Positions 465 to 64,000 of a stretch of DNA of 64,000 nt are shown in pieces; position 1 is the first letter of the stretch, and every line of letters begins with the position of its first letter. Under the pieces are notes generated by a model, which was not told the origin of the DNA, searched no databases, and saw only the letters and a list, made by a program, of their open reading frames with translations. This DNA comes from Brachycybe producta. Taxonomy: Eukaryota > Arthropoda > Diplopoda > Playtdesmida > Andrognathidae. Both the position numbers and the translations under genes were made by a program. The stretch lies in NCBI GenBank assembly GCA_036925085.1, contig JAUPFP010000127.1, forward strand, positions 149,178 to 213,177, in the 5' to 3' direction.

Positions 465-597
465 AAAACTAGAAGAGTAAAAACATAAATGAACTTTTTA
501 TGATAAATAGGAAACTTAACTAAAAAGTACAATAAAACGTTAATTTTGAAAGATAATCATGATTGTTGCCACTTTCGTTTACTCTTCTAGTTTCTTG
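465..597. repeat. Foldback element, copy with both ends
   Basis: The left end reads AAAACTAGAAGAGTAAA and the right end is its near reverse complement TACTCTTCTAGTTTCT. Inside are the family landmarks AACTTTTTATG and TTTTGAAAGATAATC. This is one of roughly thirty copies of a palindromic element in this window. The consensus left arm is (T)TAGAAACTAGAAGRGTA, then TCAATCACTTAA, then CATGTTGATATCTTTC, then AAAATAAACTTTTTAT. The right arm repeats these in reverse complement. Confidence 0.75.
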
Positions 598-1047
598 CTC
601 GTTTACAAAAAGATCTTCATAAATGTTTTGTGATTATCTTTCAAGTGGGGGTTTCGGGTTTTCAGTGAGAAAAACAGGGCAGAATTTTCTTTCATTTTCC
701 TTTCCTTCCTTCCTTCCGGTTTATTGATTTTTTCACTTTGTTCCATTTCAATTTCCACGTTCAATTTCATTTTGTGTTTATCAGCACAAGAAATTGAGGC
801 GATAAAGTCCCTTCAACTTCCATCAGATCATTGATTTGTCACACAAAAAATGCCATTTTCAGGCGTTTTGCGGTTTTTTTTTTCTTCTTCTTCTACTATT
901 TTGTATAATCCTTATATTTATACAATGAAAATCGTTTAACACGAAATTGGCAGGAACCGGAATATTTTTTTCGTGTTAAGGTCTCTTTTTGAACAGCTGA
1001 TCATGTCTTTCGGAAGAGCAAAATTAAGAGAAACTAGAAAGTTTTTT

Positions 1048-1187
1048 AAAAAACTAGAAAAGTAGCTCAATCAAGGTGATTTTAAGTTGATATCTTTCAA
1101 AATAAACTTTTTACATACAAAAAAAGCTCATTTTGAAAGATAACAACACGAAAATACTTTTTAAGTTAATTCTACTTTCTAAAACAC
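1048..1187. repeat. Foldback element copy
   Basis: This copy reads AAACTAGAAAAGTAGCTCAA at the left, has GTTGATATCTTTCAAAATAA inside, and ends TTCTACTTTCTAAAACAC. The central part contains the inverted partner TCATTTTGAAAGATAACA. It is a compact complete copy of about 140 bp. Confidence 0.75.
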
Positions 1188-1617
1188 ATTCAAGTTTCCC
1201 TTAATTTTTATACCTGGAAAGGCATATTAATCAAGAGTTAGAGACGCAGTTACACTTTAAAATGAGCTTAATACGAATTTTGTGTTAAAAGAATTTTGAT
1301 GCTGTTCTGAGGATTACCGAACTGAAAAGGCATTTCGTGTTTTAAACGGGTTTCTCTGCGTAATATTGAAGTCAGGAGAATTTCTTTCCGTCTTATTTAT
1401 GAAATAATTTATAAAGACAGTGAAGAAACTTAATGAGGTTCTTTTTTAATAACATTAATTAGAATTTCATACAAGTTAATTCAGTCTTATAATTTAAAAG
1501 TGACCCTTAGTTTTTTTTACTTAAGTTTCAAGTAGTTTTTAAAAAACAGGAGAAATTGTATCCTCGTACTTTTGAGTTATTTATTTTGTAACGAAATTTG
1601 AAGGTTCAAAGTTCACG

Positions 1618-1723
1618 TTGAACCCTCAGAACAGGGTTCCAACATAGGAAAAAAAACGCCTCTATAGTTAAGTTTATTCAATAATACAGAGGATTATGTT
1701 GGAACCCTGTTGTGAGGGTTTGA
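1618..1723. repeat. Palindrome with GAACCCTC/GAGGGTT arms
   Basis: The left arm (1618-1646) contains TTGAACCCTCAGAACAGGG and the right arm (1695-1723) contains CCCTGTTGTGAGGGTTTGA. About 26 of 29 positions pair. An inner CCTCT...AGAGG pair extends the stem. Related arms occur near 20000-20200, 25860-26000 and 29290-29395, so this is a second foldback family. Confidence 0.65.
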
Positions 1724-2366
1724 AGTTCAGTAAAGAGCAAACTAAAAAATTTCTATATAAACTAAATAAATAAATACATTAATAAAAAAAAAAACTCATT
1801 TTTGACAAGTTTTCTTTCTAAAAATTGGTCTAATAGATTTTTGCTGATAGACATTTTTCTTGAAATGAAATTTCCAATTTCTTTTGACTTTTTTCAGAAA
1901 ACAAGTTGTGATATTCAAGAAAGAATAAGAGAAGAGAAATGTCAATAAAAATATATCAAACAATTGTTAGAAAAAAAGATAATAAAAAAATATTGTCTAT
2001 TTTTGTTTGTTTTTTGAAATATTTTTCATTTTTTGACATTTTTAGATTCTTATAATTTCCTTCGATTCTTTCTTAAGTTTTCTCTCTCAACTTAATCCAT
2101 TATATTTATAGTACTTAACATAATGGACGACGACGTATTTGGAATAGATCTCGATTCGTCATTTTTTTTAGGTCCAAATTCCAGAAGAAAACTTATAACT
2201 TGAAGCCTCCTCCTCCTCTGTGCTCAGGCTTCCAATACACAAATATCCTCTTTTGTTCAGTGGTTTTCTATGTTAGAATTGTTTCTGTTCTCATAGTCAG
2301 GGTTCAAGTTATAGCTCAAGTGTCAAGTGTTCTTATTGAATTTGGACCAAAGAAACTTCGCCACAG

Positions 2367-2437
2367 AGAGAGAGAGAGAGAGAGATAAGGGAGAGAGAGA
2401 GAGAGAACAATGAATGAATGAATGAATGAATGAATGC
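2367..2437. repeat. GA microsatellite followed by GAAT tandem repeat
   Basis: Two interrupted runs of GA dinucleotides (2367-2404) are followed by about seven copies of ATGA/GAAT (2410-2437). No function is indicated. Confidence 0.9.
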
Positions 2438-2979
2438 TTTTACCTTGATTAAACTTTGTAATGAAAACTGCTTTAATTTCCTTTCCAATCTTTTTTCTTG
2501 TCTCTAACCGTAGCAACAATTGACTTTTTTTATAACTCAACTTATTAAAACTTATTAAATTTGTATTAAAAAAAACAAGCGATAAATGTTTGTTAGAAAA
2601 ATAATTATTAATTTTCTTTATCGTTTAATTAACTATTTCGCTTGGAAAAGATTTAAATCATAATTAAAATCGAAACCAAGTAAAGTAAGAAATGAAGTGA
2701 AGGAACACAAAAAAACAATAGGGTATAATTTCGCGCTTATTTAGCTTATATTAGAAGAGAAGAAAAAAACAATTATTTATTTTTCTCTCTTTAAAAAGAA
2801 ACAAAGCAAAAATTGTTCATTTTGAGCAACAACTCATTTTGAAAAAAAAATATACCGAATTAAATAAAGTCGGGCATTAAAAGGGTTGAATTATAATTGT
2901 CGGTCGACAATGGCCGCCAATAACAGAGCTTTATGGAAAAATGGGTAAAAAAAAGTAAACTAGGGATTTCAGTACAGAA

Positions 2980-5141: not shown

Positions 5142-5170
5142 TTTGAATAAAAAAAAACTTCGAGAGAAAT

Positions 5171-5303
5171 TTCAAAACTGGAATAATTTTAGTAAATGAA
5201 TCGGATTAAAAGTAGTTTTCATGAATTATCAAAAATTCCAAGTAGAACTGAAACCAAAAAAAAAATTCATTTTGAAAGATAATCAAGTACGATTCTAGTT
5301 TAT
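5171..5303. repeat. Foldback element copy, degraded left end
   Basis: The left part reads TTTCAAAACTGGAATAATTT. The middle has TTCATTTTGAAAGATAATCA, and the right end reads ACGATTCTAGTTTAT. It follows a GA microsatellite at 5109-5139. Confidence 0.55.
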
Positions 5304-5725
5304 AAAAAAAGGTTTTGTGACTTTTTATTTCTTCCTGAAGTTCGAAGTGACCACAGGAATCTCTCTTCTCTCATTCATTCATTTATTTAGAGATTGAGAG
5401 AGAGAGAGGGAGAGAGGATTAGGTTAGGTTGTATTAACTGACCAAAAGTAGATTCTTATGTAAGGTGATGGTCAAGAATGACATAACACGGGGTGGGGTG
5501 GCTGGGGAGTTGTTCCCCTCCCCCCATTTTCCTTTTACCCAAGCTCTTATTAAAGACACAGGGTTAAGACCTACTTGATGTCTTAAGCCACTGTCTTAAT
5601 ACCAAATTTCTAAGTAGGGGATTTGTCATCAAGGATTCAAAATTGCATCTTTTTTTCTTTAAGGGACACATTTCCTTGAAAAGGAGGAGGAGGAGGAGGT
5701 AGGATGGGAGATGGTGATGATGATT

Positions 5726-7723: not shown

Positions 7724-8027
7724 TAAAAAGGTGTTTCAGTAAATTCAATCAAAGCTCATTTATTATATTATGAAAAATGAAAAATAAAAAAATAGACAGA
7801 GAGAGAAATTTATTCCGCTATTTTCCGAATAATCGATTTTTTTTTTGCTTTTCATTTGTTACAGTAAATATCCGGAATTAGTGAGAAAATAGTTTCATTA
7901 TAATAATTAAAGACTAGAGAAATTCAAACGAAATTTGAAATTATATCAGATTAGAATTAAGGTGGTTTTAAAGGTGTAAGTAAACCTCCTGTTTTTTCGA
8001 TTGCAAATTGGAAAAGAGTTGCATGTG

Positions 8028-8195
8028 TTTTAGAAACTAGAAGGGTAATTTTCAAAGTTAGCTTTTTATGTGATTTGTTTAGAGAATGATCCAACTTTAA
8101 GCAGATCACATTTTTTTTTGGCTATAAAAAAAGCTTATTTTGGATTTATTACTCAAGTGATTAAATTATTCAGTTCTAGTTTCTAATAACAGATT
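8028..8195. repeat. Foldback element copy
   Basis: It opens GTGTTTTAGAAACTAGAAGG and ends with CAGTTCTAGTTTCTAATA. The inverted inner landmark AAAAGCTTATTTTGG is present. Confidence 0.7.
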
Positions 8196-8365
8196 CAAGT
8201 TTCTTTTAATTTAGCACCTGAAAGATGAAATGATCAAGAGTTCGAAAGGCGTTTTTTTGCACCTTAAAACCACCTTGAAATTGCGAAAATCTCTGTTCAA
8301 GTTACTTTAGGTCAGGGACTTAGTTTACGATTTTACAAAACGCCCAAAACTTAAGTTTGGAAAAA

Positions 8366-8973: not shown

Positions 8974-9344
8974 TTTAACCTTAAAAGTTAGGCCTGACTG
9001 TGGTGGTGGTCATTGGCGTCCTGAGAAATTAAACAAAAAAACTTTGCTGGCTTTTTTTTATATTAAGACTATTTATTATACACATTGTATAATATTAATA
9101 ATAATAATAATAATAACAAACAACGAAGGTAAAATACAATTTTCCTTTGTTATATTATTACATGTGGTTTTCTAGGAGAAAAAATAAACAGGTTCATCAT
9201 CATCATACAGTCACGTAAATACCGTCAAAGTGGAAAAATCAGGCATTTTGCACATTTACTACGAGATAATCTTGCAAAAAATCAACATTTTGCAATTCAG
9301 AAGAGCAACAATTAAGGACGGAGAGAACTAACATTGAAAGTGTG

Positions 9345-9510
9345 TGTTAGAAACTAGAACGGTTAGATGTATTTTATAATTACTTAATTGTATTTTTATG
9401 TTGATATTTTTTAAATGAAATTTTAATAGACGAAAATGAAACAATATTGTCTGCACTTAAAAAGTTAGGTAATTTTCAAACTGCCATAAAAGCTTATTTT
9501 AAAAGATATG
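9345..9510. repeat. Foldback element, right end lost
   Basis: The left end reads GTGTGTTAGAAACTAGAACG. The inner inverted landmark AAAAGCTTATTTTAAAAGAT is present, but there is no clear CTTCTAGTTTCT terminus. Confidence 0.6.
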
Positions 9511-9848
9511 AAGATGAAAATTAGGTTTATTTCTGAAAAAAAAGATAGAATAATGATCGAGTTGGGGGGGGGGGCAATAAAATGTCAAATGGTTGTTTTG
9601 AAGCGTTTTTACACATTGCCTAATTGTACAACAAACATATAATGGTGTTTGAGAACATAGTCTAGTGGTTATATAGAATGACTGGTTTGTTTCTAATATA
9701 TTAATTTAAAGGGGGGAGGGGGGTGATGCCATTGGAGTTGATTCTGGATAATAATTGGTTATTTGATGATGAATCCGATGACTGATGATGATGATGATGA
9801 AGATGATTTAGATGCTGAAAAAAGGCTCAAATTGCAACCCAATCCTAC

Positions 9849-12305: not shown

Positions 12306-15300
12306 AAGGATTTCTTGCAAGTTCTTTGTTTGTAACTCATACTCCTTGCCTTCTTGATTTTTTTTTGGGGGGGGGAAGGCCCTAAGGCTGTGAACTTCAG
12401 TAAGTTCAGAAGCGATTTTTGATGCCTCTTGATTGTGTTTTTGCTTATTATTATTGAACCTCCTCCTCCTCCTCCTCCTCCTCCTCCTTCTGCTCATACT
12501 GTGGCTATTTATGCAATTCAATTGTAGTTTTTTATCGTAAATTTTGCAATTTTTATCACTTCTCCCTCTCTTTGATTTTTCTATTTGTGTTAAGAAAGTC
12601 ATTTATAAGCAAATGATCCCTTTGACTATAAATTGTTTAAAATTGTTTCAATCTTTGATGGTTTTTTTTATATAAAGTAGAAATGAAAACAAGATACACC
12701 AAAAGAAGAAGAAGAAAATCCTCCCACATTTTGTAATATTTATGAGACGATTCTCTTTCTCTCTCTCTCTCTCTCAGGAGGTTCAAATTCAAGGAGGGCA
12801 CTTGACACTTGAACTCTCAGGGCAAATTAATAAACATAGACGAAAATACCATGTTCAAAAATAATGAAACCACATCATAGAGGTTTTTTTTTTCTCTTTC
12901 TGTGTGTGTTAGTAGAACTCTGATTAGAGAGAAAGAGAGTTCAAAGTTGAAGTTTGTCAAATTTCCTTAATTAACTTTATGCCATTGTTTTTTCAAAGCT
13001 TCTTCTGTTTTGAAAAAAAAATAACCAAAACTTCTCTTAAATCTTTTAAGTTTTAAGATAGAGAAGAAAAAATAACTGGTTTTTAAACTTTAATCACTCT
13101 TATGATGATAACATTAGTTAATTAGAAAAAGATGCTCAACAAGAAGAAGAAGAAAAAGAATGTACTTTTAAGTAGCTGCTTTTAAAGCCCTTTTTGTAAT
13201 TGAGAATTGGAATGTTTTTTTGTTTTTTTCTTAATTATTACTCTTTTTTTAAGTTCTCTCAGACATTGTTAATTAAGGGAATTATATACAGCATAATTAT
13301 AGTAATTCCAATTATAAGAGTGAAATATTTGAAATATTTAAATGTGTAGCTTCTTTTAAATTACAATTCTGATAAAATTAATCTTCTCTTTTATTTCGAT
13401 AACAAATTTTAATGTGACTTTCAAAATTAATTAAAATTTTATCTGTGTTTTTATGCTTACAAAATCTGAATTAAAATTATAAATTATTGCTGTGACACAC
13501 TTTAATATAATAATTATTAATATGATTTTTTTCTCTCTCTCAAAAAAACAATGTCTTAATTTTTTTATTTTAAAATGTGGTTTTCACAAAATAATATATT
13601 TATGCGAAAAATTTCATAAAGATAATTTTTAACTTGTATTATTATTATTATTAAAAAAAAATCACGAATTAAATTAGTAATTGCAGTTAAACAATATATT
13701 CTTGAATTGACATTGTAATTATTGATAACATAAGATTAATAGGATATTTTCTTTAAAATAAATTTCGATATTTCTTCATAAAAAATTCACAAAATATTTT
13801 CGTCATAAGAAACACATTGAGGAGGAGTGACACTGAGGCTACGACATTGCAAAAGAATAGGCAAAGTGAGAAGTGTCCATCTTCACCATTTAGAAAATAG
13901 GCAGCCATTAAAATAATACCTAAGAAAAAGGGGAGAGAAAAATGGAAATGAATTATGGGAGGGGGATAAAAACGCCATCTTTTTAATAAAAAGCAAAAAA
14001 GGTTATAAAGATAGTGAAAGTGGGGGGGGGGGGAACTTAATGCATCCTTCTTATTCCTGTATCATTCCTTAATCCCAGTCCAAGTTAACAATCGGTTGGC
14101 CAACAATTTCCGAACAGAAAGAAGGGGATTTCTGGGGACAGAAGAAGAAGAAGAAGAAGAAGAAAAAAACCCTTCTTTTACCCTAGTTACATATTAACAA
14201 TAGTAAACATTTCTCTTCATTCGATTTCTGCAACAACTGACTGTTGTGTGTCGGATAGAAATCGATGACACATAAAATTCTGACAAAACATCCTAAATGT
14301 AGAGAAAAAAAAAATCAGTTATTTCGCACAATTACTGGGTAGTTTTTTGTGCAAATTCCATCAAATGTGGAGATAAAAATGTCTGAAACCCCAAACATCT
14401 TAAGTATAATCTAAGATTTTGATTGTTTTGATGTATAAATTCTGCATATTGCCTAGTCAATGTTACAAGAAACGTTTCTCGAATGATGTTTTTTCTTCTC
14501 AAAATGATTAGTGAATTTTCAAAGTGACTTATTTCTAACTTTAAGAATATTTTAAAATAAAATCAACACTTGTTATCATATTTGGTTTTTGGAAAGAAAT
14601 CCTCTTAAATTCAGAACTAAAGAATTTACAGTAGGTCTTAGCTTTAAAAACCGGAAGTTGGGGTTCGTTGTACCAACCACTTAAACGTTCATCTTTTAGG
14701 AGATAGACTGAAAGATGGAGGAGACTAGAAAAAAAGAAATATCTCTTTATCAATATGAAGAGATTTCCTGAAAAGTGACACACAAAAATGTCACAAAGGG
14801 ACTTTAATATAAAAAAAGTCTTGTAAAAATTGTTGATTTTGTTAAGAAGAAACTGTTAGGTTTTTTTTTTTTGGTTATTGATTTTAGTGTAAACTCAGTT
14901 TAGAGAAGAAAAAAAAAAAAGAAGCTAAAATGGATGTCTCTTGAGATTTTTAAGCTCAACAGTTTCAACTCTTTTGTTTTCTTGTTTCCTTTTTAGTGAG
15001 TTTGGAAATTTGCATTTAATTTCCTTTTTATTATGAAAACAAGATTCAGAATTTCAGACAGAGAAGTTGGAGAATAAACAACTTGAACGTTTTTCGTATT
15101 AATTTTAAATTGCAAAATAGACAAATATTGAATAATAAAAGAAAGTTTCGCTTTAAAGGTTAAACTTTTGGCAGCCATTTTAGGTCCATTAGAAAAATTG
15201 AAAAAAAAACACAAATTTAAAGTTTGTTAGAAACAAAATTAATAAAGAAATATATTATCATGTTGATATATTTCAAATTAAACTTTTTCAAAACTAGAGA

Positions 15301-15370
15301 CTAGAAGAATGTTAAACTCTTGATTATTCTGTTTTTCAGGTGCAAAAATGAAGAGAAACATGAATTTGTT

Positions 15371-15591
15371 TAAGAAACTAGAAAGGTAGGACCTAACTTA
15401 ATCGTTTAATTTGTATTTTCATGTTGATGTCTTTCAAAATAAGCTTTTTTTATTGCAGTTTGAAAATGGTCCTACTTTAAGGAGACAATATTTTTTTAAT
15501 TTTTTGTCTACAGAAAGCTTATTTTGAAACATCAAAAAAGCATGAAAATATATTTTAAGTGATTGCGCCACCCCTTCTAGTCTGTAAGACA
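15371..15591. repeat. Foldback element copy, about 220 bp
   Basis: It opens AAGAAACTAGAAAGGTAGG, contains CATGTTGATGTCTTTCAAAA and the inverted AAAGCTTATTTTGAAACATC, and ends CCCCTTCTAGTCTGTAAGAC. A further half copy precedes it at about 15210-15290. Confidence 0.75.
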
Positions 15592-16926: not shown

Positions 16927-17071
16927 ACACACTAAAACAGAGCTGTGTTTTTTCGTGTTGATATTACAAACTAAACTTTTTTATAGATTAACAAACTTGC
17001 ATAAAAAAGTTTATTTTGAAAGATATTAAACCACTGTTTTACACATTGCAAAAACTTTAAGAAGAAAGTGA

Positions 17072-17175
17072 AAGTTTGTTAGAAACTAGAATAAGTCAAT
17101 GATTATTTTGTTGAAATTTCAACAATTTAGCCATTTTGGAATTTTAATAAAAATGATTTCTTTTGAAAGATTATC
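17072..17175. repeat. Foldback element, partial
   Basis: The left end TGTTAGAAACTAGAATAAG and the inner ATTTCTTTTGAAAGATTATC are present. There is no clear right terminus. Confidence 0.5.
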
Positions 17176-19375: not shown

Positions 19376-19512
19376 TTTTAGAAACTAGAAGGGTAGCTCC
19401 AATTTCAATATAAGCAGTCCTTAAGCACAGACGATATTTTTTTTTAAATTTTTGTTTTGAAAGATTATCAAAAACATGAAAATATTATATTCGGCTACCC
19501 TTCTAGTTACTA
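19376..19512. repeat. Foldback element copy
   Basis: It opens TTTTAGAAACTAGAAGGGTA and ends TACCCTTCTAGTTACTAAGA. The middle is shortened but keeps TTTTGAAAGATTATC. Confidence 0.7.
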
Positions 19513-39893: not shown

Positions 39894-40068
39894 TTTAATT
39901 TGTCTGCTATTTATATTCTATTCCAATTGGTCCTCTTTCATCTGCATATTTTTCAAATGACCGATTTAAAAACAGTTTTAAGTGGATGTTTTTTTAACTG
40001 TGACTGGACTAGAAGACTCCGACCGTTGTTTCTCTCCCTCTCTCTCTCTCCTTGGGTATCGTCTCTCT

Positions 40069-49600: not shown

Positions 49601-51794
49601 ATGGAAACGCTTTACGCTCGTGTGGGTTTGGCTTTTTCAATTTTGAAGGCGAAACCGGCGGATTTTACGGCGAAACAGTTTGCGGAATTGCTCCAGATGA
49701 AGTTTCGCGATCAAAAATGCCGCGAAAACGAGAAAACCGCCAAAGAAAGTGAACAAGTTTTGACAAAAGCCTCTCAGAAGTCGTCTCAATTTAACTTAGG
49801 TAATTATTAAGAGTTGAATTGATTTTTAAAGCAATTTATGGTAGATTTTTAAGATTTCTATTTGTCCAAACTAGAAGAGTATACCTGTGGAACCGGTTTG
49901 AAACTGTCATAATTTCATAAAAAGTTTATTTTGAAACATTGTTTGCCCTTCTAGTTTCTAAATCTTGCAATTGTTTCATTGCTCATGAGTATGTTGAAGA
50001 AAAAAAAGCTTTTTATTATAGTTTTTATTTGAATTTTAAAAGTTTTGATTCCGAATTTTTCGTTTTTTTTTCTTCAGATTTTCCGCCGTTTTCTTCATCG
50101 CTGTATGATTCGTTTAAATCGAATAATAATAAGATGAAAATGGTTCTTCTGGACGCTTTTTTCACTCTTCAGTCGTCCTCGGAATACGGTCAAGATGGAC
50201 CATCGAGTGACCGATTAATCGATTCGATCGATATCGTTTTGCAACACTTGTTAACTGACGATGATGATTTTATTGCGACGGCGACGGAAGACGACGAACC
50301 CGGAGCTGTGATGTCCATCCGTCACGTCCAAAGGGCCCTTATCGGAGGTTTGAATCGAGACGACGATCGGATCGAAGCGATTCTACGATCTTTCTTACAA
50401 TCGTTCATCTTCGTTAGTGACCATCGCAGCAGCAGAACGGTAAGTGGACCCCCTTTTTTCTGTTTCCTTTTTTTGGTTGGGGTTTTATTTTTGTTGCAAA
50501 ATATTGTTGTTTTCACGACGAAATCGATAACAAAACGTTAATTTTCGTAGCGATATTTGAAATTGTTAGGATAACGAAGGTTAAGGGTTCAGTGATTTCG
50601 TGGTTTTCATTTAGTTTTTGCATTTTAAATGAACCCGGTTAACAGCGCGTCTGGAACACACTGATTATTTTTGTCGTTCAACATGAAAATCAACCTTAAG
50701 TTATTGAGAACTTGCCCTTCTAGTTTCTAAAACAAATTCAAGTTCTGAAAGACAAAATAATCAAAAGAAGTTGGAAGATCAGTTGTTCATTAAACCCTTG
50801 TTAAGGTAAGGTAATGAAGGAAACATGACACTGAAAGTGTTTTGAACTGTCTGAGAGTGATAAAAGTCACTCACTTGAGAGTCAAAACAAAGTAACAGCT
50901 GACAGAAAATGGCGTCAATTCATTTGGGGGGGGGGGTTCATTCAGTTACAAGAAAAAGAGACAAATTTATCTTTACAAATGTATCTTATTTACCATTGGG
51001 GCCAATTGCAATTTCTCTTCTGTTTTATTGTATTGTCTCTTTTAGGGGTGGTGCGTGGGCGGAAGTGAAGTTGGGGGCCCCTTAATGGTAGGGGCCCCAC
51101 CATCTCTTTCTCTCTGAGAGTTTTTTTTGTTTTGCTTGATTTATGGCCGTTGCAAAACGCATTTTTTTAACGGGGATGTCCTCGAAGGGAAACGGTTTAA
51201 ATGTTGTGTGTTTGGGTCCTTTTAGCTCCCATAAGTAATTGACTCTTAAATTAACTAGAATTCCCTTTTCTCCACCCCCCTCCAAATTCCCCCAATTCTT
51301 AACCCTGAGATTCCTCCAAGTTCTCTCAATTGGGCCCCCCCCAATTGAGAGAACTTGGAGGAATCTCAACTTTTGAGATTTTCTTTTTGGGGTTTTTTTA
51401 GTATTTACAGAAAGAGCGATGTCTTGGTTTTGTGAGTCAGATTATCACTTTGGACGCGGAACATATTCTTAAACTACGTTTGACCATCGTTCGATTCCTC
51501 CTGGACATTCTGATGAATGTGATCGATGAAATGGTGTTGGTCGGTCGTGGTCAACAAGTGCACCTCTCTCCTACAAAGTGGCACAATGTCGCCTTTCTTT
51601 TAACTGTTCTCGAACGGGTGGTAATGGTCAATTCGTCCGAATCCTCTTCATCGTCTTCGCTGGATGGACAGTGGTCAATGGTCGTCGGACGTTGTCTCGG
51701 TCATTTGACGTCTCGTTTTCCGCTTTTTGTTCGTGTTCTTTGTCGTCTTGTTCCTTCTCATATCTGTCCTTCATTTAAGGTGTCACATCATTAA
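49601..51794 (+). CDS. MEI4: MEI4-like meiotic double-strand-break protein, complete, three exons
   Basis: In vertebrates MEI4 works with REC114 and IHO1 on chromosome axes to allow SPO11-dependent meiotic breaks. Exons are 49601-49799, 50078-50439 and 51402-51794: 954 nt, 317 residues plus TAA, with phases consistent (FNLD|FPPF; SSRT|YLQK). The start is the first ATG of the exon (AAAGATGGAAACG); an unseen 5' exon is possible because CTTGAAAG could be an acceptor. The N-terminus METLYARVGLAFSILKAKPA continues DFTAKQFAELLQMKF and resembles the conserved MEI4 N-terminal motif (a helix, then K-P-A-D, then an E-x-L segment). Exon 2 is acidic in the middle (LTDDDD, TATEDDEPG). Exon 3 is largely helical and hydrophobic (LKLRLTIVRFLLDILMNVID), as in the MEI4 C-terminal helical region. 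It is shorter than vertebrate MEI4 (just under 400). The assignment rests mainly on the N-terminus. Confidence 0.7.
49868..49965. repeat. Short foldback element in MEI4-like intron 1
   Basis: It opens AAACTAGAAGAGTATACC and ends GCCCTTCTAGTTTCTAAATC with AAAAGTTTATTTTGAAACAT between. Only about 100 bp remain. Confidence 0.7.
51307..51367. repeat. Perfect 28-bp inverted repeat before exon 3 of the MEI4-like gene
   Basis: The left arm 51307-51334 (GAGATTCCTCCAAGTTCTCT then CAATTGGG) is exactly complementary to the right arm 51340-51367, with a five-C loop. It lies in intron 2, ending 34 nt before the exon 3 acceptor, so in the pre-mRNA it would be a very stable hairpin over or beside the branch-point region. 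Confidence 0.9.
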
Positions 51795-51817
51795 CACCTA
51801 ACACAACTACAAAGCTT

Positions 51818-51981
51818 GTTAGAAACTAGACTAGTAAAGGGTTGTGTGTATGTTACAAAGGAATTCAATAAAGATATTTTAGAAAAGAAAACGTTTTTAG
51901 GCGGGGTTGGAAAATTGTCAGAAAAAGTTTATTTGTAAAATAATTTTTATAATATTGATCTACCATTCTAGTTTCTAACAG
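51818..51981. repeat. Foldback element in the 3' end of the MEI4-like gene
   Basis: It opens TTGTTAGAAACTAGACTAGT and ends CCATTCTAGTTTCTAACAG. It begins only 24 nt after the stop codon and contains the AATAAA used below. Confidence 0.75.
51867..51872 (+). terminator. Candidate AATAAA polyadenylation signal of the MEI4-like gene
   Basis: AATAAA in GAATTCAATAAAGATATT is the first one after the stop codon and lies inside a foldback element, so the element may supply the gene's 3' end. Confidence 0.5.
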
Positions 51982-52035
51982 ACTTCGAATTATTATTTTG
52001 TTCTTTTTAAAATGTTTGGTCTTCAAGAGTTGGTT

Positions 52036-52180
52036 AGTTAGAAACTAGAAGAGCCTAGTTGTTAAGTTTGAAGAAAAAAAAACAAATAGTGTTTCAGTTT
52101 TTCAAAACGTCATAAAAATTCGTTTAAAAAATATGAAAATGTTTTAAAGCCTTTTCTTTTACTCTTCTACTTTCTAGTTA
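52036..52180. repeat. Foldback element copy
   Basis: It opens TAGTTAGAAACTAGAAGAGC and ends TACTCTTCTACTTTCTAG. It is adjacent to the previous copy, about 55 bp apart. Confidence 0.7.
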
Positions 52181-52254
52181 CATTTTTAATTTCTTGTTAA
52201 AATGACAAAGGAAAAAGACTAGAACATTTTTTTTTAAAAATGCCACCAACCACC

Positions 52255-52845: not shown

Positions 52846-55800
52846 TTCATAGCAAGTGAACCAGACGAGCGGGAATGGAAATTTTGGATTTGATGCATTC
52901 CCAGAAAAGTCTGGAATGCAGTGATGTCTTCATTTCCAGTGTGCAATGCACGCTTCAAAAGTTACACCAGTTCAATTTGGGTGTCATTGAAGTGTCTATG
53001 CTTGCTCATGGATCTGTAACTTGGAAAATTCATAGCAAGTGAACCAGACGAGCGGGAATGGAAATTTTGGATTTGATGCATTCCCAGAAAAGTCTGGAAT
53101 GCAGTGATGTCTTCATTTCCAGTGTGCAATGCACGCTTCAAAAGTTACACCAGTTCAATTTGGGTGTCATTGAAGTGTCTATGCTTGCTCATGGATCTGT
53201 AACTTGGAAAATTCATAGCAAGTGAACCAGACGAGCGGGAATCGAAATTTTGTATTCGATGCATTCCCAGAAAAGTCTGGAATGCAGAGTTGTCTTCATT
53301 TCCAGTGTGCAATGCACGCTTCAAAAGTTACACCAGTTCAATTTGGGTGTCATTGAAGTGTCTGTGCTTGCTCATGGATCTGTAACTTGGAAAATTCATA
53401 GCAAGTGAACCAGACGAGCGGGAATGGAAATTTTGGATTTGATGCATTCCCAGAAAAGTCTGGAATGCAGTGATGTCTTCATTTCCAGTGTGCAATGCAC
53501 GCTTCAAAAGTTACACCAGTTCAATTTGGGTGTCATTGAAGTGTCTATGCTTGCTCATGGATCTGTAACTTGGAAAATTCATAGCAAGTGAACCAGACGA
53601 GCGGGAATCGAAATTTTGTATTCGATGCATTCCCAGAAAAGTCTGGAATGCAGAGTTGTCTTCATTTCCAGTGTGCAATGCACGCTTCAAAAGTTACACC
53701 AGTTCAATTTGGGTGTCATTGAAGTGTCTGTGCTTGCTCATGGATCTGTAACTTGGAAAATTCATAGCAAGTGAACCAGACGAGCGGGAATGGAAATTTT
53801 GGATTTGATGCATTCCCAGAAAAGTCTGGAATGCAGTGATGTCTTCATTTCCAGTGTGCAATGCACGCTTCAAAAGTTACACCAGTTCAATTTGGGTGTC
53901 ATTGAAGTGTCTATGCTTGCTCATGGATCTGTAACTTGGAAAATTCATAGCAAGTGAACCAGACGAGCGGGAATCGAAATTTTGTATTCGATGCATTCCC
54001 AGAAAAGTCTGGAATGCAGAGTTGTCTTCATTTCCAGTGTGCAATGCACGCTTCAAAAGTTACACCAGTTCAATTTGGGTGTCATTGAAGTGTCTATGCT
54101 TGCTCATGGATCTGTAACTTGGAAAATTCATAGCAAGTGAACCAGACGAGCGGGAATCGAAATTTTGTATTCGATGCATTCCCAGAAAAGTCTGGAATGC
54201 AGAGTTGTCTTCATTTCCAGTGTGCAATGCACGCTTCAAAAGTTACACCAGTTCAATTTGGGTGTCATTGAAGTGTCTGTGCTTGCTCATGGATCTGTAA
54301 CTTGGAAAATTCATAGCAAGTGAACCAGACGAGCGGGAATCGAAATTTTGTATTCGATGCATTCCCAGAAAAGTCTGGAATGCAGAGTTGTCTTCATTTC
54401 CAGTGTGCAATGCACGCTTCAAAAGTTACACCAGTTCAATTTGGGTGTCATTGAAGTGTCTGTGCTTGCTCATGGATCTGTAACTTGGAAAATTCATAGC
54501 AAGTGAACCAGACGAGCGGGAATGGAAATTTTGGATTTGATGCATTCCCAGAAAAGTCTGGAATGCAGTGATGTCTTCATTTCCAGTGTGCAATGCACGC
54601 TTCAAAAGTTACACCAGTTCAATTTGGGTGTCATTGAAGTGTCTATGCTTGCTCATGGATCTGTAACTTGGAAAATTCATAGCAAGTGAACCAGACGAGC
54701 GGGAATCGAAATTTTGTATTCGATGCATTCCCAGAAAAGTCTGGAATGCAGAGTTGTCTTCATTTCCAGTGTGCAATGCACGCTTCAAAAGTTACACCAG
54801 TTCAATTTGGGTGTCATTGAAGTGTCTGTGCTTGCTCATGGATCTGTAACTTGGAAAATTCATAGCAAGTGAACCAGACGAGCGGGAATGGAAATTTTGT
54901 ATTCGATGCATTCCCAGAAAAGTCTGGAATGCAGAGTTGTCTTCATTTCCAGTGTGCAATGCACGCTTCAAAAGTTACACCAGTTCAATTTGGGTGTCAT
55001 TGAAGTGTCTGTGCTTGCTCATGGATCTGTAACTTGGAAAATTCATAGCAAGTGAACCAGACGAGCGGGAATCGAAATTTTGTATTCGATGCATTCCCAG
55101 AAAAGTCTGGAATGCAGAGTTGTCTTCATTTCCAGTGTGCAATGCACGCTTCAAAAGTTACACCAGTTCAATTTGGGTGTCATTGAAGTGTCTGTGCTTG
55201 CTCATGGATCTGTAACTTGGAAAATTCATAGCAAGTGAACCAGACGAGCGGGAATGGAAATTTTGGATTTGATGCATTCCCAGAAAAGTCTGGAATGCAG
55301 TGATGTCTTCATTTCCAGTGTGCAATGCACGCTTCAAAAGTTACACCAGTTCAATTTGGGTGTCATTGAAGTGTCTATGCTTGCTCATGGATCTGTAACT
55401 TGGAAAATTCATAGCAAGTGAACCAGACGAGCGGGAATCGAAATTTTGTATTCGATGCATTCCCAGAAAAGTCTGGAATGCAGAGTTGTCTTCATTTCCA
55501 GTGTGCAATGCACGCTTCAAAAGTTACACCAGTTCAATTTGGGTGTCATTGAAGTGTCTGTGCTTGCTCATGGATCTGTAACTTGGAAAATTCATAGCAA
55601 GTGAACCAGACGAGCGGGAATGGAAATTTTGGATTTGATGCATTCCCAGAAAAGTCTGGAATGCAGTGATGTCTTCATTTCCAGTGTGCAATGCACGCTT
55701 CAAAAGTTACACCAGTTCAATTTGGGTGTCATTGAAGTGTCTATGCTTGCTCATGGATCTGTAACTTGGAAAATTCATAGCAAGTGAACCAGACGAGCGG

Positions 55801-58800
55801 GAATCGAAATTTTGTATTCGATGCATTCCCAGAAAAGTCTGGAATGCAGAGTTGTCTTCATTTCCAGTGTGCAATGCACGCTTCAAAAGTTACACCAGTT
55901 CAATTTGGGTGTCATTGAAGTGTCTGTGCTTGCTCATGGATCTGTAACTTGGAAAATTCATAGCAAGTGAACCAGACGAGCGGGAATGGAAATTTTGGAT
56001 TTGATGCATTCCCAGAAAAGTCTGGAATGCAGTGATGTCTTCATTTCCAGTGTGCAATGCACGCTTCAAAAGTTACACCAGTTCAATTAGGGTGTCATTG
56101 AAGTGTCTATGCTTGCTCATGGATCTGTAACTTGGAAAATTCATAGCAAGTGAACCAGACGAGCGGGAATCGAAATTTTGTATTCGATGCATTCCCAGAA
56201 AAGTCTGGAATGCAGAGTTGTCTTCATTTCCAGTGTGCAATGCACGCTTCAAAAGTTACACCAGTTCAATTTGGGTGTCATTGAAGTGTCTGTGCTTGCT
56301 CATGGATCTGTAACTTGGAAAATTCATAGCAAGTGAACCAGACGAGCGGGAATCGAAATTTTGGATTTGATGCATTCCCAGAAAAGTCTGGAATGCAGAG
56401 TTGTCTTCATTTCCAGTGTGCAATGCACGCTTCAAAAGTTACACCAGTTCAATTTGGGTGTCATTGAAGTGTCTATGCTTGCTCATGGATCTGTAACTTG
56501 GAAAATTCATAGCAAGTGAACCAGACGAGCGGGAATCGAAATTTTGTATTCGATGCATTCCCAGAAAAGTCTGGAATGCAGAGTTGTCTTCATTTCCAGT
56601 GTGCAATGCACGCTTCAAAAGTTACACCAGTTCAATTTGGGTGTCATTGAAGTGTCTGTGCTTGCTCATGGATCTGTAACTTGGAAAATTCATAGCAAGT
56701 GAACCAGACGAGCGGGAATGGAAATTTTGGATTTGATGCATTCCCAGAAAAGTCTGGAATGCAGTGATGTCTTCATTTCCAGTGTGCAATGCACGCTTCA
56801 AAAGTTACACCAGTTCAATTTGGGTGTCATTGAAGTGTCTATGCTTGCTCATGGATCTGTAACTTGGAAAATTCATAGCAAGTGAACCAGACGAGCGGGA
56901 ATCGAAATTTTGTATTCGATGCATTCCCAGAAAAGTCTGGAATGCAGAGTTGTCTTCATTTCCAGTGTGCAATGCACGCTTCAAAAGTTACACCAGTTCA
57001 ATTTGGGTGTCATTGAAGTGTCTGTGCTTGCTCATGGATCTGTAACTTGGAAAATTCATAGCAAGTGAACCAGACGAGCGGGAATGGAAATTTTGGATTT
57101 GATGCATTCCCAGAAAAGTCTGGAATGCAGTGATGTCTTCATTTCCAGTGTGCAATGCACGCTTCAAAAGTTACACCAGTTCAATTTGGGTGTCATTGAA
57201 GTGTCTATGCTTGCTCATGGATCTGTAACTTGGAAAATTCATAGCAAGTGAACCAGACGAGCGGGAATCGAAATTTTGTATTCGATGCATTCCCAGAAAA
57301 GTCTGGAATGCAGAGTTGTCTTCATTTCCAGTGTGCAATGCACGCTTCAAAAGTTACACCAGTTCAATTTGGGTGTCATTGAAGTGTCTGTGCTTGCTCA
57401 TGGATCTGTAACTTGGAAAATTCATAGCAAGTGAACCAGACGAGCGGGAATGGAAATTTTGGATTTGATGCATTCCCAGAAAAGTCTGGAATGCAGTGAT
57501 GTCTTCATTTCCAGTGTGCAATGCACGCTTCAAAAGTTACACCAGTTCAATTTGGGTGTCATTGAAGTGTCTATGCTTGCTCATGGATCTGTAACTTGGA
57601 AAATTCATAGCAAGTGAACCAGACGAGCGGGAATCGAAATTTTGTATTCGATGCATTCCCAGAAAAGTCTGGAATGCAGAGTTGTCTTCATTTCCAGTGT
57701 GCAATGCACGCTTCAAAAGTTACACCAGTTCAATTTGGGTGTCATTGAAGTGTCTATGCTTGCTCATGGATCTGTAACTTGGAAAATTCATAGCAAGTGA
57801 ACCAGACGAGCGGGAATCGAAATTTTGTATTCGATGCATTCCCAGAAAAGTCTGGAATGCAGAGTTGTCTTCATTTCCAGTGTGCAATGCACGCTTCAAA
57901 AGTTACACCAGTTCAATTTGGGTGTCATTGAAGTGTCTGTGCTTGCTCATGGATCTGTAACTTGGAAAATTCATAGCAAGTGAACCAGACGAGCGGGAAT
58001 GGAAATTTTGGATTTGATGCATTCCCAGAAAAGTCTGGAATGCAGTGATGTCTTCATTTCCAGTGTGCAATGCACGCTTCAAAAGTTACACCAGTTCAAT
58101 TTGGGTGTCATTGAAGTGTCTATGCTTGCTCATGGATCTGTAACTTGGAAAATTCATAGCAAGTGAACCAGACGAGCGGGAATCGAAATTTTGTATTCGA
58201 TGCATTCCCAGAAAAGTCTGGAATGCAGAGTTGTCTTCATTTCCAGTGTGCAATGCACGCTTCAAAAGTTACACCAGTTCAATTTGGGTGTCATTGAAGT
58301 GTCTGTGCTTGCTCATGGATCTGTAACTTGGAAAATTCATAGCAAGTGAACCAGACGAGCGGGAATGGAAATTTTGGATTTGATGCATTCCCAGAAAAGT
58401 CTGGAATGCAGTGATGTCTTCATTTCCAGTGTGCAATGCACGCTTCAAAAGTTACACCAGTTCAATTTGGGTGTCATTGAAGTGTCTATGCTTGCTCATG
58501 GATCTGTAACTTGGAAAATTCATAGCAAGTGAACCAGACGAGCGGGAATCGAAATTTTGTATTCGATGCATTCCCAGAAAAGTCTGGAATGCAGAGTTGT
58601 CTTCATTTCCAGTGTGCAATGCACGCTTCAAAAGTTACACCAGTTCAATTTGGGTGTCATTGAAGTGTCTGTGCTTGCTCATGGATCTGTAACTTGGAAA
58701 ATTCATAGCAAGTGAACCAGACGAGCGGGAATCGAAATTTTGTATTCGATGCATTCCCAGAAAAGTCTGGAATGCAGAGTTGTCTTCATTTCCAGTGTGC

Positions 58801-60986
58801 AATGCACGCTTCAAAAGTTACACCAGTTCAATTTGGGTGTCATTGAAGTGTCTGTGCTTGCTCATGGATCTGTAACTTGGAAAATTCATAGCAAGTGAAC
58901 CAGACGAGCGGGAATGGAAATTTTGGATTCGATGCATTCCCAGAAAAGTCTGGAATGCAGTGATGTCTTCATTTCCAGTGTGCAATGCACGCTTCAAAAG
59001 TTACACCAGTTCAATTTGGGTGTCATTGAAGTGTCTATGCTTGCTCATGGATCTGTAACTTGGAAAATTCATAGCAAGTGAACCAGACGAGCGGGAATCG
59101 AAATTTTGTATTCGATGCATTCCCAGAAAAGTCTGGAATGCAGAGTTGTCTTCATTTCCAGTGTGCAATGCACGCTTCAAAAGTTACACCAGTTCAATTT
59201 GGGTGTCATTGAAGTGTCTATGCTTGCTCATGGATCTGTAACTTGGAAAATTCATAGCAAGTGAACCAGACGAGCGGGAATGGAAATTTTGTATTTGATG
59301 CATTCCCAGAAAAGTCTGGAATGCAGAGTTGTCTTCATTTCCAGTGTGCAATGCACGCTTCAAAAGTTACACCAGTTCAATTTGGGTGTCATTGAAGTGT
59401 CTGTGCTTGCTCATGGATCTGTAACTTGGAAAATTCATAGCAAGTGAACCAGACGAGCGGGAATGGAAATTTTGTATTTGATGCATTCCCAGAAAAGTCT
59501 GGAATGCAGTGATGTCTTCATTTCCAGTGTGCAATGCACGCTTCAAAAGTTACACCAGTTCAATTTGGGTGTCATTGAAGTGTCTATGCTTGCTCATGGA
59601 TCTGTAACTTGGAAAATTCATAGCAAGTGAACCAGACGAGCGGGAATCGAAATTTTGTATTCGATGCATTCCCAGAAAAGTCTGGAATGCAGAGTTGTCT
59701 TCATTTCCAGTGTGCAATGCACGCTTCAAAAGTTACACCAGTTCAATTTGGGTGTCATTGAAGTGTCTGTGCTTGCTCATGGATCTGTAACTTGGAAAAT
59801 TCATAGCAAGTGAACCAGACGAGCGGGAATGGAAATTTTGGATTTGATGCATTCCCAGAAAAGTCTGGAATGCAGTGATGTCTTCATTTCCAGTGTGCAA
59901 TGCACGCTTCAAAAGTTACACCAGTTCAATTTGGGTGTCATTGAAGTGTCTATGCTTGCTCATGGATCTGTAACTTGGAAAATTCATAGCAAGTGAACCA
60001 GACGAGCGGGAATCGAAATTTTGTATTCGATGCATTCCCAGAAAAGTCTGGAATGCAGAGTTGTCTTCATTTCCAGTGTGCAATGCACGCTTCAAAAGTT
60101 ACACCAGTTCAATTTGGGTGTCATTGAAGTGTCTGTGCTTGCTCATGGATCTGTAACTTGGAAAATTCATAGCAAGTGAACCAGACGAGCGGGAATGGAA
60201 ATTTTGTATTTGATGCATTCCCAGAAAAGTCTGGAATGCAGTGATGTCTTCATTTCCAGTGTGCAATGCACGCTTCAAAAGTTACACCAGTTCAATTTGG
60301 GTGTCATTGAAGTGTCTGTGCTTGCTCATGGATCTGTAACTTGGAAAATTCATAGCAAGTGAACCAGACGAGCGGGAATGGAAATTTTGGATTTGATGCA
60401 TTCCCAGAAAAGTCTGGAATGCAGTGATGTCTTCATTTCCAGTGTGCAATGCACGCTTCAAAAGTTACACCAGTTCAATTTGGGTGTCATTGAAGTGTCT
60501 ATGCTTGCTCATGGATCTGTAACTTGGAAAATTCATAGCAAGTGAACCAGACGAGCGGGAATCGAAATTTTGTATTCGATGCATTCCCAGAAAAGTCTGG
60601 AATGCAGAGTTGTCTTCATTTCCAGTGTGCAATGCACGCTTCAAAAGTTACACCAGTTCAATTTGGGTGTCATTGAAGTGTCTGTGCTTGCTCATGGATC
60701 TGTAACTTGGAAAATTCATAGCAAGTGAACCAGACGAGCGGGAATGGACATTTTGGATTTGATACATTCCCAGAAAAGTCTGGAATGCAGAGTTGTCTTC
60801 ATTTCCAGTGTGCAACGCACGCTTCAAAAGTTACACCAGTTCAAAGTGGGCATCATTGAAGTGTCTGTGCATGGATCTGTAACTTCGAAAATTTATAGCA
60901 AGTGAACCAGACGAGCGGGAATGGAAATGTTGGATTTGATGCATTCCCAGAAAAGTCTGGAATGCATAGATGTCTTCATTTCCAGT
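52846..60986 (+). repeat. 183-bp satellite array, about 44.5 monomers, mostly dimeric order
   Basis: The word AGCAAGTGAACCAGACGAGC recurs at 52851, 53034, 53217 ... 60720: 43 periods of exactly 183 bp with no net indel. One 177-bp unit and a truncated unit follow. Two variants differ at a few linked sites. A reads GGGAATGGAAATTTTGGATT, GCAGTGATG, TGTCTATG. B reads GGGAATCGAAATTTTGTATT, GCAGAGTTG, TGTCTGTG. Most of the array alternates A-B (a 366-bp dimer), with B-B runs at 53949-54497, 57609-57974 and 58524-58889 and mosaic units at 54864, 56328, 59256 and 60171. Each monomer has a bulged hairpin GCATTCCCAGA/TCTGGAATGC and the dyad GTGCAATGCAC. The period is a multiple of three, but no open frame spans it. 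The left edge is homogeneous up to the junction; the right edge is decayed. Such arrays are typical of heterochromatin or centromeric satellites, but location and function cannot be inferred from this alone. Confidence 0.98.
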
Positions 60987-61268: not shown

Positions 61269-62301
61269 TAGAATTACAGGGTGAGTGTGTGTCTATGTTA
61301 TAATCAGTATGCAAATTCCATTCATTCTATTCCTCCATTTGAATCTTATAATGAGAGAGAAACACAATGAAAAACCAAATTTGAAAAGATACAATTGAGA
61401 GACAGAAAGAAAATGAGTGAGAGATAAAACGAATAAGAGAATGAAAGAGAAAGCAAATGAGATAGAACGACTGAGAGAGATACAACGAATTATAAGGAAT
61501 GAAAAAAGAGAGATGACGTCAAATGGCGGCTAGACTTTGAATGAACGGGTTTCGGTGAAATTTTTCTAGTCTTTTATTTTTTGATATATGAGTGCACCAA
61601 TTTTTGACTTCTTTGTCCTTTTAACTGAAATTGGGCGACATTTGCATAAAAAATTCCTTCAATTTTGGCAATCTTCTCATTTGAAACTTGAAATATAAAA
61701 AAAAAACTGAAAATTGTTGCAGAAAATTTTTTCAGAGATTTTCATTTTTATTTGGTGTCTTTTTGGGGTCATAAAAAGATGGAAACAGAGAGAGAGAGAA
61801 AGAATAAAATGGGAAGAAACTATTTATTATACAACATTTTTTTGGTCTTATTTTTTTGGCTGCTGGGATTGTAATATTCGCAATTATGAAAGTTAGTTGT
61901 TTTTTTCTTTCTCCATTTTCTCCAATGGAAAAAAAAGACAATACAATTTTTGCCGCTTTATCACTTAAAACAATGTCATCTTTTGGGGTTTTTCTTTTTG
62001 GAGATTCAATCGGAAAATGCAATTTCAGAAACTTAAAACAAAATAAGGGGAAGAAACTCATAATAAAAACGTCCAAATGGAACTAATTATAGTCGTCGTC
62101 GTTGTTATTATTGGGATCTAACTGGACCATTGGTCTCTCATAATTGTATCGGACCCACAAGAATATTTTACAATTAAACAAACACAAATATACTGAAGAT
62201 GTTTTATTCTCAGTATTCTGCAGTTCAAGAAGGAGAAATTGAAAGTGTCTCTTCAATTATTCTGTCTTTCAGAAGAGCAAAATGAAGAGAAACGTGAATA
62301 T

Positions 62302-62497
62302 GTTTTAGAAACTAGAAAGGTAGCTCAATCACTTGAGGATAATTTCATGTTGATATCTTTCAAAAGGAGCTTTCAGTGCGAGTTGTTTTAGGAAATAACC
62401 CGACTTTAAAAGTAGGCGAGGTTATTTTAAAAGATATCAAACATGAAAACATTCTTAAGTGGGTTGAAGCTGCTATTACCCTTCTAGTTTGTAAAAC
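62302..62497. repeat. Foldback element copy, well preserved
   Basis: It opens TGTTTTAGAAACTAGAAAGG and ends ACCCTTCTAGTTTGTAAAAC. The arms CATGTTGATATCTTTCAAAA and TTTAAAAGATATCAAACATG are clear. Confidence 0.8.
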
Positions 62498-63414
62498 AAA
62501 TTCAAAGTTTCTATTACATTTTGCTTCTCTGAAAAGCAGGAATAATCAAAGGAGTCCAAAAGGGAGTTTTAACAAAATTACATAGAAGATTTGACATTAA
62601 ATTTTCCAAACATACTGGAAAGTTGGCCATAAAAACAAGATGGTTCCCACAAAAACCACAAAAATAACATTTCCATAAAAACACAACAGAAACAGAACCA
62701 TTATGACACGGAGTTATTAAGTTCATTGTTCTGACGTAAAATTAGATGTGTGGATTAAGGGTTAGGGCCCCTGGGTTAATTGTTGCTGCGTGAGGAGGAG
62801 GAGGAGGAAGGAGGATGGGAACTGTGGATGGACCCCGACTCCCCCCCCCCCCCCTCCAACCACTAATACAATTCGATCTCTTTTCAAACTTCATAATGAA
62901 TCGCCATTCTATTTTGATGGGTCTTTTATGATGAAATGTGTCTTGAATTAGGAAAAAGGGGGGGGGGTGGGGTTTGGGGAGTTTTAAAGGGGTTTCTACA
63001 CTGAACATTGAGTTAGAGGTTAGGAGGAGGAGGAGGAGAGTAGGTTCCAAATTGAACTCTTGGTGTGCTTGGAATTGCAATATGGGTTTTTTCAAAGACA
63101 ATTATTTTGAAGGGGGGTTGAAATAGGGGGACGGGGGTTGTGTTTTTACACCTTGAAAAATTCCGTTTGTGTGTCCATGGTGACAACCCCCCCCCCCTTT
63201 TCCACCCTTTTCACATCTCTGCAATTTGAATCCCTTTTCACATTGCCTGTGTTTTTATCAGCAGTAATTGACTCTTGCCTCATTTGCATAGGAATTTTAT
63301 TGTAAAAATTCGTTCATTTTTTTTTTCAAAAAGTAGGAATATTTTATCAGCAAAGAAGAGAAAGTCAACGCAACTCTCAAATTGCACACTTCTTATTTTA
63401 CCTCCTTCGTATTC

Positions 63415-63528
63415 AAAAAACGTCGCTTAAAATAAAGTTAAAACTTAAACCATGATGCTATAGCATGTCTATGGAGAGGTTTTTTTAAGTTTCACTTTGG
63501 CTTAAGTAACGTCTTAGAATATGCTTGT
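63415..63528. repeat. Foldback of the AAAATAAAGTTAAACTTAAAC family, copy 2
   Basis: The left arm CGTCGCTTAAAATAAAGTTA then AAACTTAAACCATGATGC pairs with TTAAGTTTCACTTTGGCTTA then AGTAACGTCTTAGAATATGC. The centre TGTCTATGGAGAG is shared with the copy at 52255-52380. Confidence 0.75.
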
Positions 63529-63574
63529 TATATATTCTGCATTTTGGAAACAACTTGAGATAACTTGAAAATTT

Positions 63575-63784
63575 GTTAAAGACTAGAAGAGCGACTGAAT
63601 CACTTAAAAGGGAATTTCGTGTCGTTTTATGGCAGTTTGAAGTTAGCTCAATGACGTTTTCCAATTTTTAGTCCAACTTTTGAAGTGAAAAAGTAGAACT
63701 TTGAAAAGTTCGCTAAAAAGCTTATTTTAAAAGATAATTAGATTCTTCTTCTCAAATGATTCTTTTTACTCTTCTAGTTAATAA
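63575..63784. repeat. Foldback element copy
   Basis: It opens TGTTAAAGACTAGAAGAGCG and ends TTACTCTTCTAGTTAATAAA. The inner AAAAAGCTTATTTTAAAAGA is present. Confidence 0.7.
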
Positions 63785-63888
63785 AAAAATACCTTCGATT
63801 TGTTGAGTCTCGAGTGTTGTTTCTGAGACGCCAGAATTATTTCATTTCTGTATTTTTGTATTGTACATTTAAAAGAAGAAATTGAAAG

Positions 63889-64000
63889 TGTTTTAGAAAC
63901 TAGAAGAGTAAAAAAAGGAATTACTTAAAGGGAGGATTTTCATGTTGATATTTTTTAAAAATAAAACTTTCTGGCTTGAATGTGATATCGCCACGAAATA
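63889..64000. repeat. Foldback element, cut by the window end
   Basis: The left arm only is visible: GTGTTTTAGAAACTAGAAGA, then TTTTCATGTTGATATTTTTT and AAAATAAAACTTTCT. Confidence 0.7.

Follow-up and report, generated by a model that had tools for sequence, protein, structure and literature searches.

A TTAA-flanked palindromic repeat family in Brachycybe producta, read as a probable non-autonomous DNA transposon

The repeat and its copies in the window

The subject of this study is a palindromic repeat unit that recurs through a stretch of 64,000 nucleotides from Brachycybe producta (positions 149178-213177 of contig C127, JAUPFP010000127.1, in assembly GCA_036925085.1, which comprises 295.3 Mb in 442 contigs). 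This whole stretch is referred to below as the window, and the unit is argued to be, in all probability, a miniature inverted-repeat transposable element (MITE) with a TTAA target. A family profile built from 76 copies was used to search 301,885 bases (the window together with fetched loci, which are numbered with the letter L) at a cut-off of E ≤ 1e-3, and returned 130 matches in the forward sequence and none when the sequence was reversed. The window holds 41 of these, partial matches included, covering 7,907 bp (12% of its length), and none of them falls within the window satellite (52846-60986). A first-pass annotation, made from the letters of the window, had put the number of copies at about 30, a figure that the count of 41 replaces; its coordinates fared better, 21 of the 22 lying inside a profile match or at most 40 bp from one, and the last (52036) lying 62 bp away. 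The 18-base motif TTAGAAACTAGAAGRGTA occurs exactly 14,729 times in the genome (7,323 forward, 7,406 reverse) and never when read backwards, while the AT-rich inner motif on its own is a weak marker, giving 87 matches forward against 49 in a reversed control.

All coordinates of window copies given here rest on a profile match unless another basis is named. Many copies have outer ends that are cut off or mutated, and only the one at 7957-8278 (plus strand) shows both clearly, with TTAA-GGTGGTTTTAAA at 7957 and CCACC-TTGA at 8278. Further family copies on the plus strand are at 15312-15652, 19286-19543 (left end TTAA-GGTTGTTT), 26259-26549, 27490-27738, 40867-41088 (beside a HECT frame), 62239-62569 (near complete) and 63533-63840, with diverged copies at 28624-28862 and 45862-46126; one more copy is probably represented by its left half at 39614-39688 and its right part at 39723-39908. 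Those on the minus strand are at 981-1268, 21612-21847 (weak end TTAAGATATTTT at 21612), 23764-23989, 33270-33479, 36397-36703 and 36700-36989 (an adjacent pair, the second with outer end TTAAGATGGTTT at 36700), 37916-38170 (end TTAAGATGGTTT at 38170, minus strand), 44717-45012 (end TTAAGATGGGTT at 44717) and 51763-52000, together with a short copy at 49864-49964 and, at 52098-52197, the profile-matching part of the copy that had been placed from 52036. Partial copies lie at 443-596, 44044-44230 and 48107-48312 (plus) and at 5151-5355 and 9286-9523 (minus). Three half copies adjoin fuller ones, namely 15150-15288 (plus, by the 15312 copy), 19165-19274 (minus, by the 19286 copy) and 63866-63970 (minus, by the 63533 copy); other halves are at 32530-32646 (plus) and at 31484-31557, 32680-32763, 34336-34490, 35043-35219, 43946-44034 and 50678-50790 (minus). 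Fragments are found at 16945-17029 and 17047-17114 (minus) and at 44993-45068 (plus), the last overlapping the 44717-45012 copy; an outer end suggested at 45069 by a fuzzy match was dropped, as its letters belong to the inner arm. To the left of the 27490 copy, at 27226-27279 (plus), a comparison of subfamily ends places an outer end of the second subfamily described below (TTTAGGTGGCTCAATAGATATTTA).

Anatomy and true ends

A complete copy runs from a TTAA and GGTGGTTTTAAAGTGTAAAC through a left arm, an asymmetric centre and a right arm to CAGCTGTTCATAAACCATC and a second TTAA. The unit had originally been described as 150-270 bp long with TTAGAAACTAGAAGRGTA at its ends; that motif turns out to be subterminal, 84-88 bp inside the arm, and the arms extend beyond it up to a TTAA adjoining GGTGGTTTTAAAGTGTAAAC or GATGGTTTATGAACAGCTG, the length first given being that of the inner part alone. 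The 13 elements in which both ends could be placed measure 264-396 bp without the TTAA and are mostly palindrome, a length at which the copies would lack coding capacity. In an alignment of 12 strong copies, chosen as the best genome matches, the arms likewise go on outward, as ...CTTGATTATTCTGTCTTTCAG...GAAACTTGAAAGTG-TTTTAGAAACTAGAAG.... The description of the inner arms as mirrored holds, with 139 of 164 aligned arm positions paired in the consensus. Inverted ends with fixed termini (GGTGGTTT / GATGGTTT), with TTAA or near-TTAA on both sides, are present in 13 of 40 loci picked by their left end. When pairs of arms are followed outward, the number of pairs that remain alike drops steeply (among the pairs listed) past 100 bp outside the core, where TTAA|GGTGG sits, and in the furthest-reaching pairs similarity fades at TTAA|GGTGG; about 80 of the pairs listed stay similar for more than 110 bp, many of them from loci with adjacent units.

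The TTAA target site and nested insertions

Genome-wide there are 563 exact left ends (GGTGGTTTTAAAGTGTAAAC), and TTAA stands directly before 355 of them (63%), where base composition would predict it about once in 80 and backward controls gave none; the exact right end followed by TTAA occurs 270 times. The 40 end-picked loci were fetched by an exact left end with TTAA, so that they provide an independent test on the right side only. A recognisable right end, mostly resembling CAGCTGTTCATAAACCATC, is present in 15 of them, and is followed by an exact TTAA in ten (L045, L048, L057, L058, L060, L063, L065, L074, L076 and L082), by TTAA with one change in three (L064, L068 and L073) and by neither in two (L052 and L056). 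In 13 constructs the flanks of an element were joined directly, and one of these, L045, was counted as a restored site: the element interrupts an earlier member of the same family, and the family profile crosses the joint unbroken when its flanks are fused at a single TTAA (58.3 bits, E 5.8e-20). The joined flanks of L073 match up to just past the joint, yet unite parts of neighbouring units. The target-site duplication that had been looked for thus takes the form of TTAA beside both ends and one restored site.

Insertion into the family's own copies recurs. The left flank lies within the same family in nine of the 40 end-picked loci (profile, E ≤ 0.05), to which L043 can be added by eye; assigned by eye as well, seven of these ten share one internal TTAA, reading AATCAC-TTAA or the mirror of this, two others lie at another site close to CTC-TTAA, and the last (L072) sits at the end of another copy. 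The exact nested joint AATCAC-TTAA-GGTGGTTTTA is found 32 times in the genome and never when read backwards. The nested share, about a quarter of the loci, is larger than the 3.5-12% of sampled DNA that the family occupies, though regional clustering may contribute to this excess. Three joints have one TTAA shared between two ends: L038 (ACCATC-TTAA-GGTGGT), L007 (a looser match) and L072. As a separate observation, made by eye, another repeat (GAATTATACGGAATCCAGTTAAGGACATGAACACC) interrupts copies at varying points, in L001 near 1740, in L044 and perhaps in L004 and L014.

Abundance, distribution and age

Twenty 10-kb pieces of contig C1 contained 37 copies, amounting to 7,848 bp (3.9%) and distributed over nine of the pieces; one piece (L010) sat on a cluster already known, and without it the figures are 32 copies, 6,569 bp (3.5%) and eight of 19 pieces. 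Scaling the exact motifs of the whole genome by these samples gives 39,000 copies from the twenty C1 pieces, 55,000 when the window is added, and 67,000 and 77,000 for the same two without L010; each estimate rests on 7-21 exact motifs and is hence rough. The genome therefore holds roughly 40,000-77,000 copies, a number as high as would be expected of a MITE family.

The copies are unevenly spread along C1, none being found in the eight sampled pieces from 11.5-18.5 Mb nor in those at 4.5, 7.5 and 8.5 Mb. Six of these eleven copy-free pieces have a G+C content of 0.45-0.58, and frames of long terminal repeat (LTR) retrotransposons occur in the three copy-free pieces that were scanned (L017, L020 and L021); L013, L022 and L023 are copy-free though AT-rich. 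A few exact ends do occur in the copy-poor stretch (one at 17.9 Mb). The samples from about 7.5-18.5 Mb (L016, L017 and L020-L027) are mostly free of the MITE, and many matches to the piggyBac transposase lie on C1 at 5.5-18.5 Mb.

Divergence from the consensus, measured in the 101 copies that align over 180 positions or more, ranges from 7.4% to 40%, with a median of 16.9%; of those pairs among them with 150 or more positions in common, the closest is 88.8% identical (L053 and L054, considered below, were not compared as a pair here). Since its copies lie 7-40% (median 17%) from the consensus the family is old, and on the evidence of its sequences it looks long inactive.

In the window, Rfam at its gathering threshold gives no match. 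The 18-base motif turned up in 12 viral-contig and two prokaryote-contig stretches, where the profile aligns over only 23-37 bp with a best score of 13.8 bits, and these hits were set aside as chance; the collections in question may omit records near this genome. Literature searches, whose scope did not extend to Repbase and Dfam, brought up no publication on this family. The TTAA MITE family described here appears to be new, while the kind of mobile DNA to which it belongs is already known.

Subfamilies and the symmetry of the arms

A set of 133 arms, selected by core and inner motif and including the first 20 left-end-picked loci, was sorted by end: 29 end in type A or B, 23 have the TTGATTATTCTG part only, and 81 have neither. 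Within these 81, one cluster of 20 consists mostly of first-family arms from adjacent units, while a cluster of four defines a second subfamily, the arms of which start with GGTGGCTGAATAGATATTTATTTTG beside TTAA or near-TTAA; an exact variant, TTAAGGTGGCTTAATAGATATTTA, occurs 19 times. The core of this subfamily is loosely related to that of the first, and because it shares the initial GGTGG but not the outer sequence, the first letters of the two are common and the next stretch different. A further outer stretch, like TTGCAAAATATGCAAATGA and seen by eye near window positions 32490 and 39560 and in L006, L010 and L048, is perhaps a third type of end.

The two arms of one copy are more alike than independent decay would leave them. 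In 63 two-armed copies the arms reach an identity of 0.767, where independent decay predicts 0.713 and arms of different copies give 0.730, and the identity of a copy's own arms exceeds the cross-copy value in 46 of the 63. The excess is small where the arms remain near the consensus (mean divergence below 0.15: identity 0.823 against 0.799 expected, higher in 25 of 32 copies) and grows with divergence (0.15-0.2: 0.743 against 0.703, higher in 15 of 16; at least 0.2: 0.676 against 0.541, higher in 14 of 15). Matching double changes make up 3.7% within copies and 1.8% between copies, with the within-copy figure the higher in 38 of 63. At the extreme, the arms of L011:4151-4412 are 88% alike, yet their divergence from the family consensus is 37% and 35%, and in L012:4453-4747 both arms carry the same outer sequence of the second subfamily. 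We read this pattern, an excess that widens as copies depart from the consensus, as reflecting distinct palindromic subfamilies, each symmetric in itself. It is conceivable, though we think it doubtful, that the arms of a single copy change together, through conversion of one arm by the other or by template switching within the foldback, such that new subfamilies would arise with a new outer sequence on both sides while the inner modules and TTAA-GGTGG persist; L011, L012, the most diverged class of copies and the matching double changes would speak for this. Arm symmetry was rejected as proof of selection on an RNA, the less diverged copies exceeding independent decay only slightly.

Interpretation

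The explanation that we favour, with a probability of about 0.85, makes the unit a non-autonomous DNA transposon of the cut-and-paste type, namely a palindromic, foldback-like MITE that duplicates TTAA. The first-pass annotation had already seen in it a non-autonomous MITE or foldback element, though it named no superfamily, and the extended inverted repeats, the TTAA at both ends, the high copy number and the nested insertion whose flanks could be restored all bear this out. A TTAA-specific transposase supplied by an autonomous relative would have moved the unit in trans; fresh copies would have landed at TTAA, including sites that older copies offer internally or at their ends, such self-insertion giving rise to both nested and adjacent clusters, and the copies would then have decayed where they lay. 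The long inverted arms that form most of the element are shared with the foldback elements of flies, the arms of which carry internal tandem repeats and which give 9-bp duplications in place of the TTAA seen here.

Several observations weigh against this explanation. No right-end match of any kind was obtained in 23 of the 40 end-picked loci, the fuzzy right-end matches in a further two (L041 and L051) were misplaced and had to be discarded, and L053 and L054 are near-identical duplicates of each other. The restored site amounts to one locus, L045, where an older copy acts as the empty site. Most arm pairs, 550 of the 950 scored, diverge at 40-70 bp outside the core, well before the TTAA, and in L034 and L040 the palindromic symmetry continues past the TTAA into the flanks (in L034 the alignment extends over 534 positions at 84%), perhaps because the unit landed midway in another palindrome. 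Finally, no autonomous element with the family's ends was found, the Kolobok transposase profile not having been among those searched.

If the unit is such a MITE, the family illustrates how a TTAA-specific element can form clusters by inserting into itself, and it offers a test case for the persistence of palindromic arm symmetry and the turnover of ends. Annotators also gain its true ends, which are needed when looking for the autonomous partner.

As to superfamily, Kolobok is the most likely assignment, and we would put the chance of its being correct at about even. It is favoured because the ends that adjoin TTAA are purine-purine: read inward, GG on the left and GA or GG on the right, where PMC6004289 gives a TTAA target with a purine-purine terminal dinucleotide as the rule for Kolobok. 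The T2 MITEs of Xenopus, which belong to that superfamily, resemble the present family in target, in purine-purine ends and in their old and numerous non-autonomous copies, and differ from it in ending AGGRR where this family has GGTGG or GATGG (PMC6004289). Since an autonomous partner with the same termini had been called for, loci that might hold one were inspected, and none was found in the piggyBac and THAP loci examined. A THAP search of the genome gave 106 matches, of which two loci were looked at and neither has the family's ends: L088 has only a THAP-containing frame, and L089, by eye, resembles a P element. Two left ends that do not continue as a MITE (L049 and L059) were followed inward without reaching an autonomous element; of the stretches reached in this way, L061 enters apparent kinase exons (by eye), and L062 holds other family fragments.

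Alternative explanations

The most serious alternative is that the MITE was moved by piggyBac transposases, which seems to us unlikely, though it has definite points in its favour. PiggyBac elements also duplicate TTAA and possess intact open frames in this genome, where the piggyBac transposase profile finds 93 matches, several of them with open frames of 613-624 aa in equal-scoring copies. There is also a resemblance to the CMITE families of the coral Acropora, which are linked to piggyBac and which, according to PMC2872659, share TTAA duplication, differing outer ends, a conserved inner region and tandem arrays; the related inner region found here across two subfamilies with differing outer ends resembles this. 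CMITEs are, however, about 100 bp long, have 13-14 bp CCC ends that tie them to piggyBac, and number about 1,600 copies according to the same paper, whereas the present elements are 264-396 bp long, mostly palindrome, with about 40,000-77,000 copies and ends in GGTGG or GATGG. The ends tell against piggyBac, for which the same source gives CC[C/T]T as the beginning, against GGTG or GATG in this family. Inverted ends beside TTAA were located in four of five fetched piggyBac loci (L083 and L084, of one type, L085 and L086), and all are CCC ends; a script found no ends in the fifth, L087, and four exact patterns of the family's ends had no match in any of the five. Independently of this question, four equal-scoring piggyBac copies with a 620-aa open frame lie at C1:6141124, C1:12714159, C1:13384735 and C26:525118; the two of them that were fetched, L083 and L084, show 99.9% identity across 2.5 kb, so this piggyBac was recently active.

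Considerably less probable is a structural or regulatory hairpin, in which the mirrored modules would have been kept for some host function, as a small RNA or in chromatin. Two copies have strong predicted folding as single strands (z = -10.63 for that at 15312-15652, and -13.95 for the other, relative to shuffles), even copies close to the consensus have arms a little more alike than independent decay would predict, and the modules are less diverged than the DNA beside them: for TTAGAAACTAGAAGGGTA the copies sampled from the window and C1 give 0.110 against 0.313 (the module being the less diverged in 67 of 68) and the end-picked copies 0.094 against 0.200 (31 of 35), and the inner module behaves likewise (59 of 65 and 29 of 33 copies). 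However, the window and C1 copies were found with a profile that itself favours the module, and when 39 end-picked loci were compared with no alignment the core surpassed one of three neighbouring or outer motifs (p 7.5e-6) and not the other two (p 0.35 and 0.12), so that its stronger conservation is upheld only in part. Conserved modules would be explained equally well by constraint on the source element, and the small excess in arm identity by subfamilies, while tens of thousands of diverged and cut-off copies suggest debris.

Least probable of all is a dispersed satellite, its palindromic monomers spread through recombination and not by transposition: neighbouring matches less than 150 bp apart (10 of 40 cases in the window and 7 of 28 among the 10-kb samples), the several units in each of L010, L032, L035, L036 and L038, and some short-spacer joints without TTAA (L033 and L036), which may be local duplications, would suit it, but most neighbours lie further apart (30 of 40 and 21 of 28), copies with both ends placed stop at TTAA or near-TTAA, and neither the three joints in which one TTAA is common to two ends nor the recurrence of nested joints at the same internal TTAA fits such a reading.

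Other features of the window and genome

The satellite in the window consists of 183-bp units, in 44.5 copies with 97% matches. Open frames on the minus strand at 41090-45715 contain ankyrin repeats and a HECT domain, in an order suggestive of a HACE1-like gene. Elsewhere in the assembly, the 15.4-kb contig C442 carries a near full-length COX1 with an in-frame TGA, its frame staying open under the invertebrate mitochondrial code, as befits an animal host; the protein has an arthropod look. Apparent nuclear copies of COX1 lie at C1:12697416-12698753 and C17:4027703-4029047, that on C1 scoring almost as well as the one on C442.

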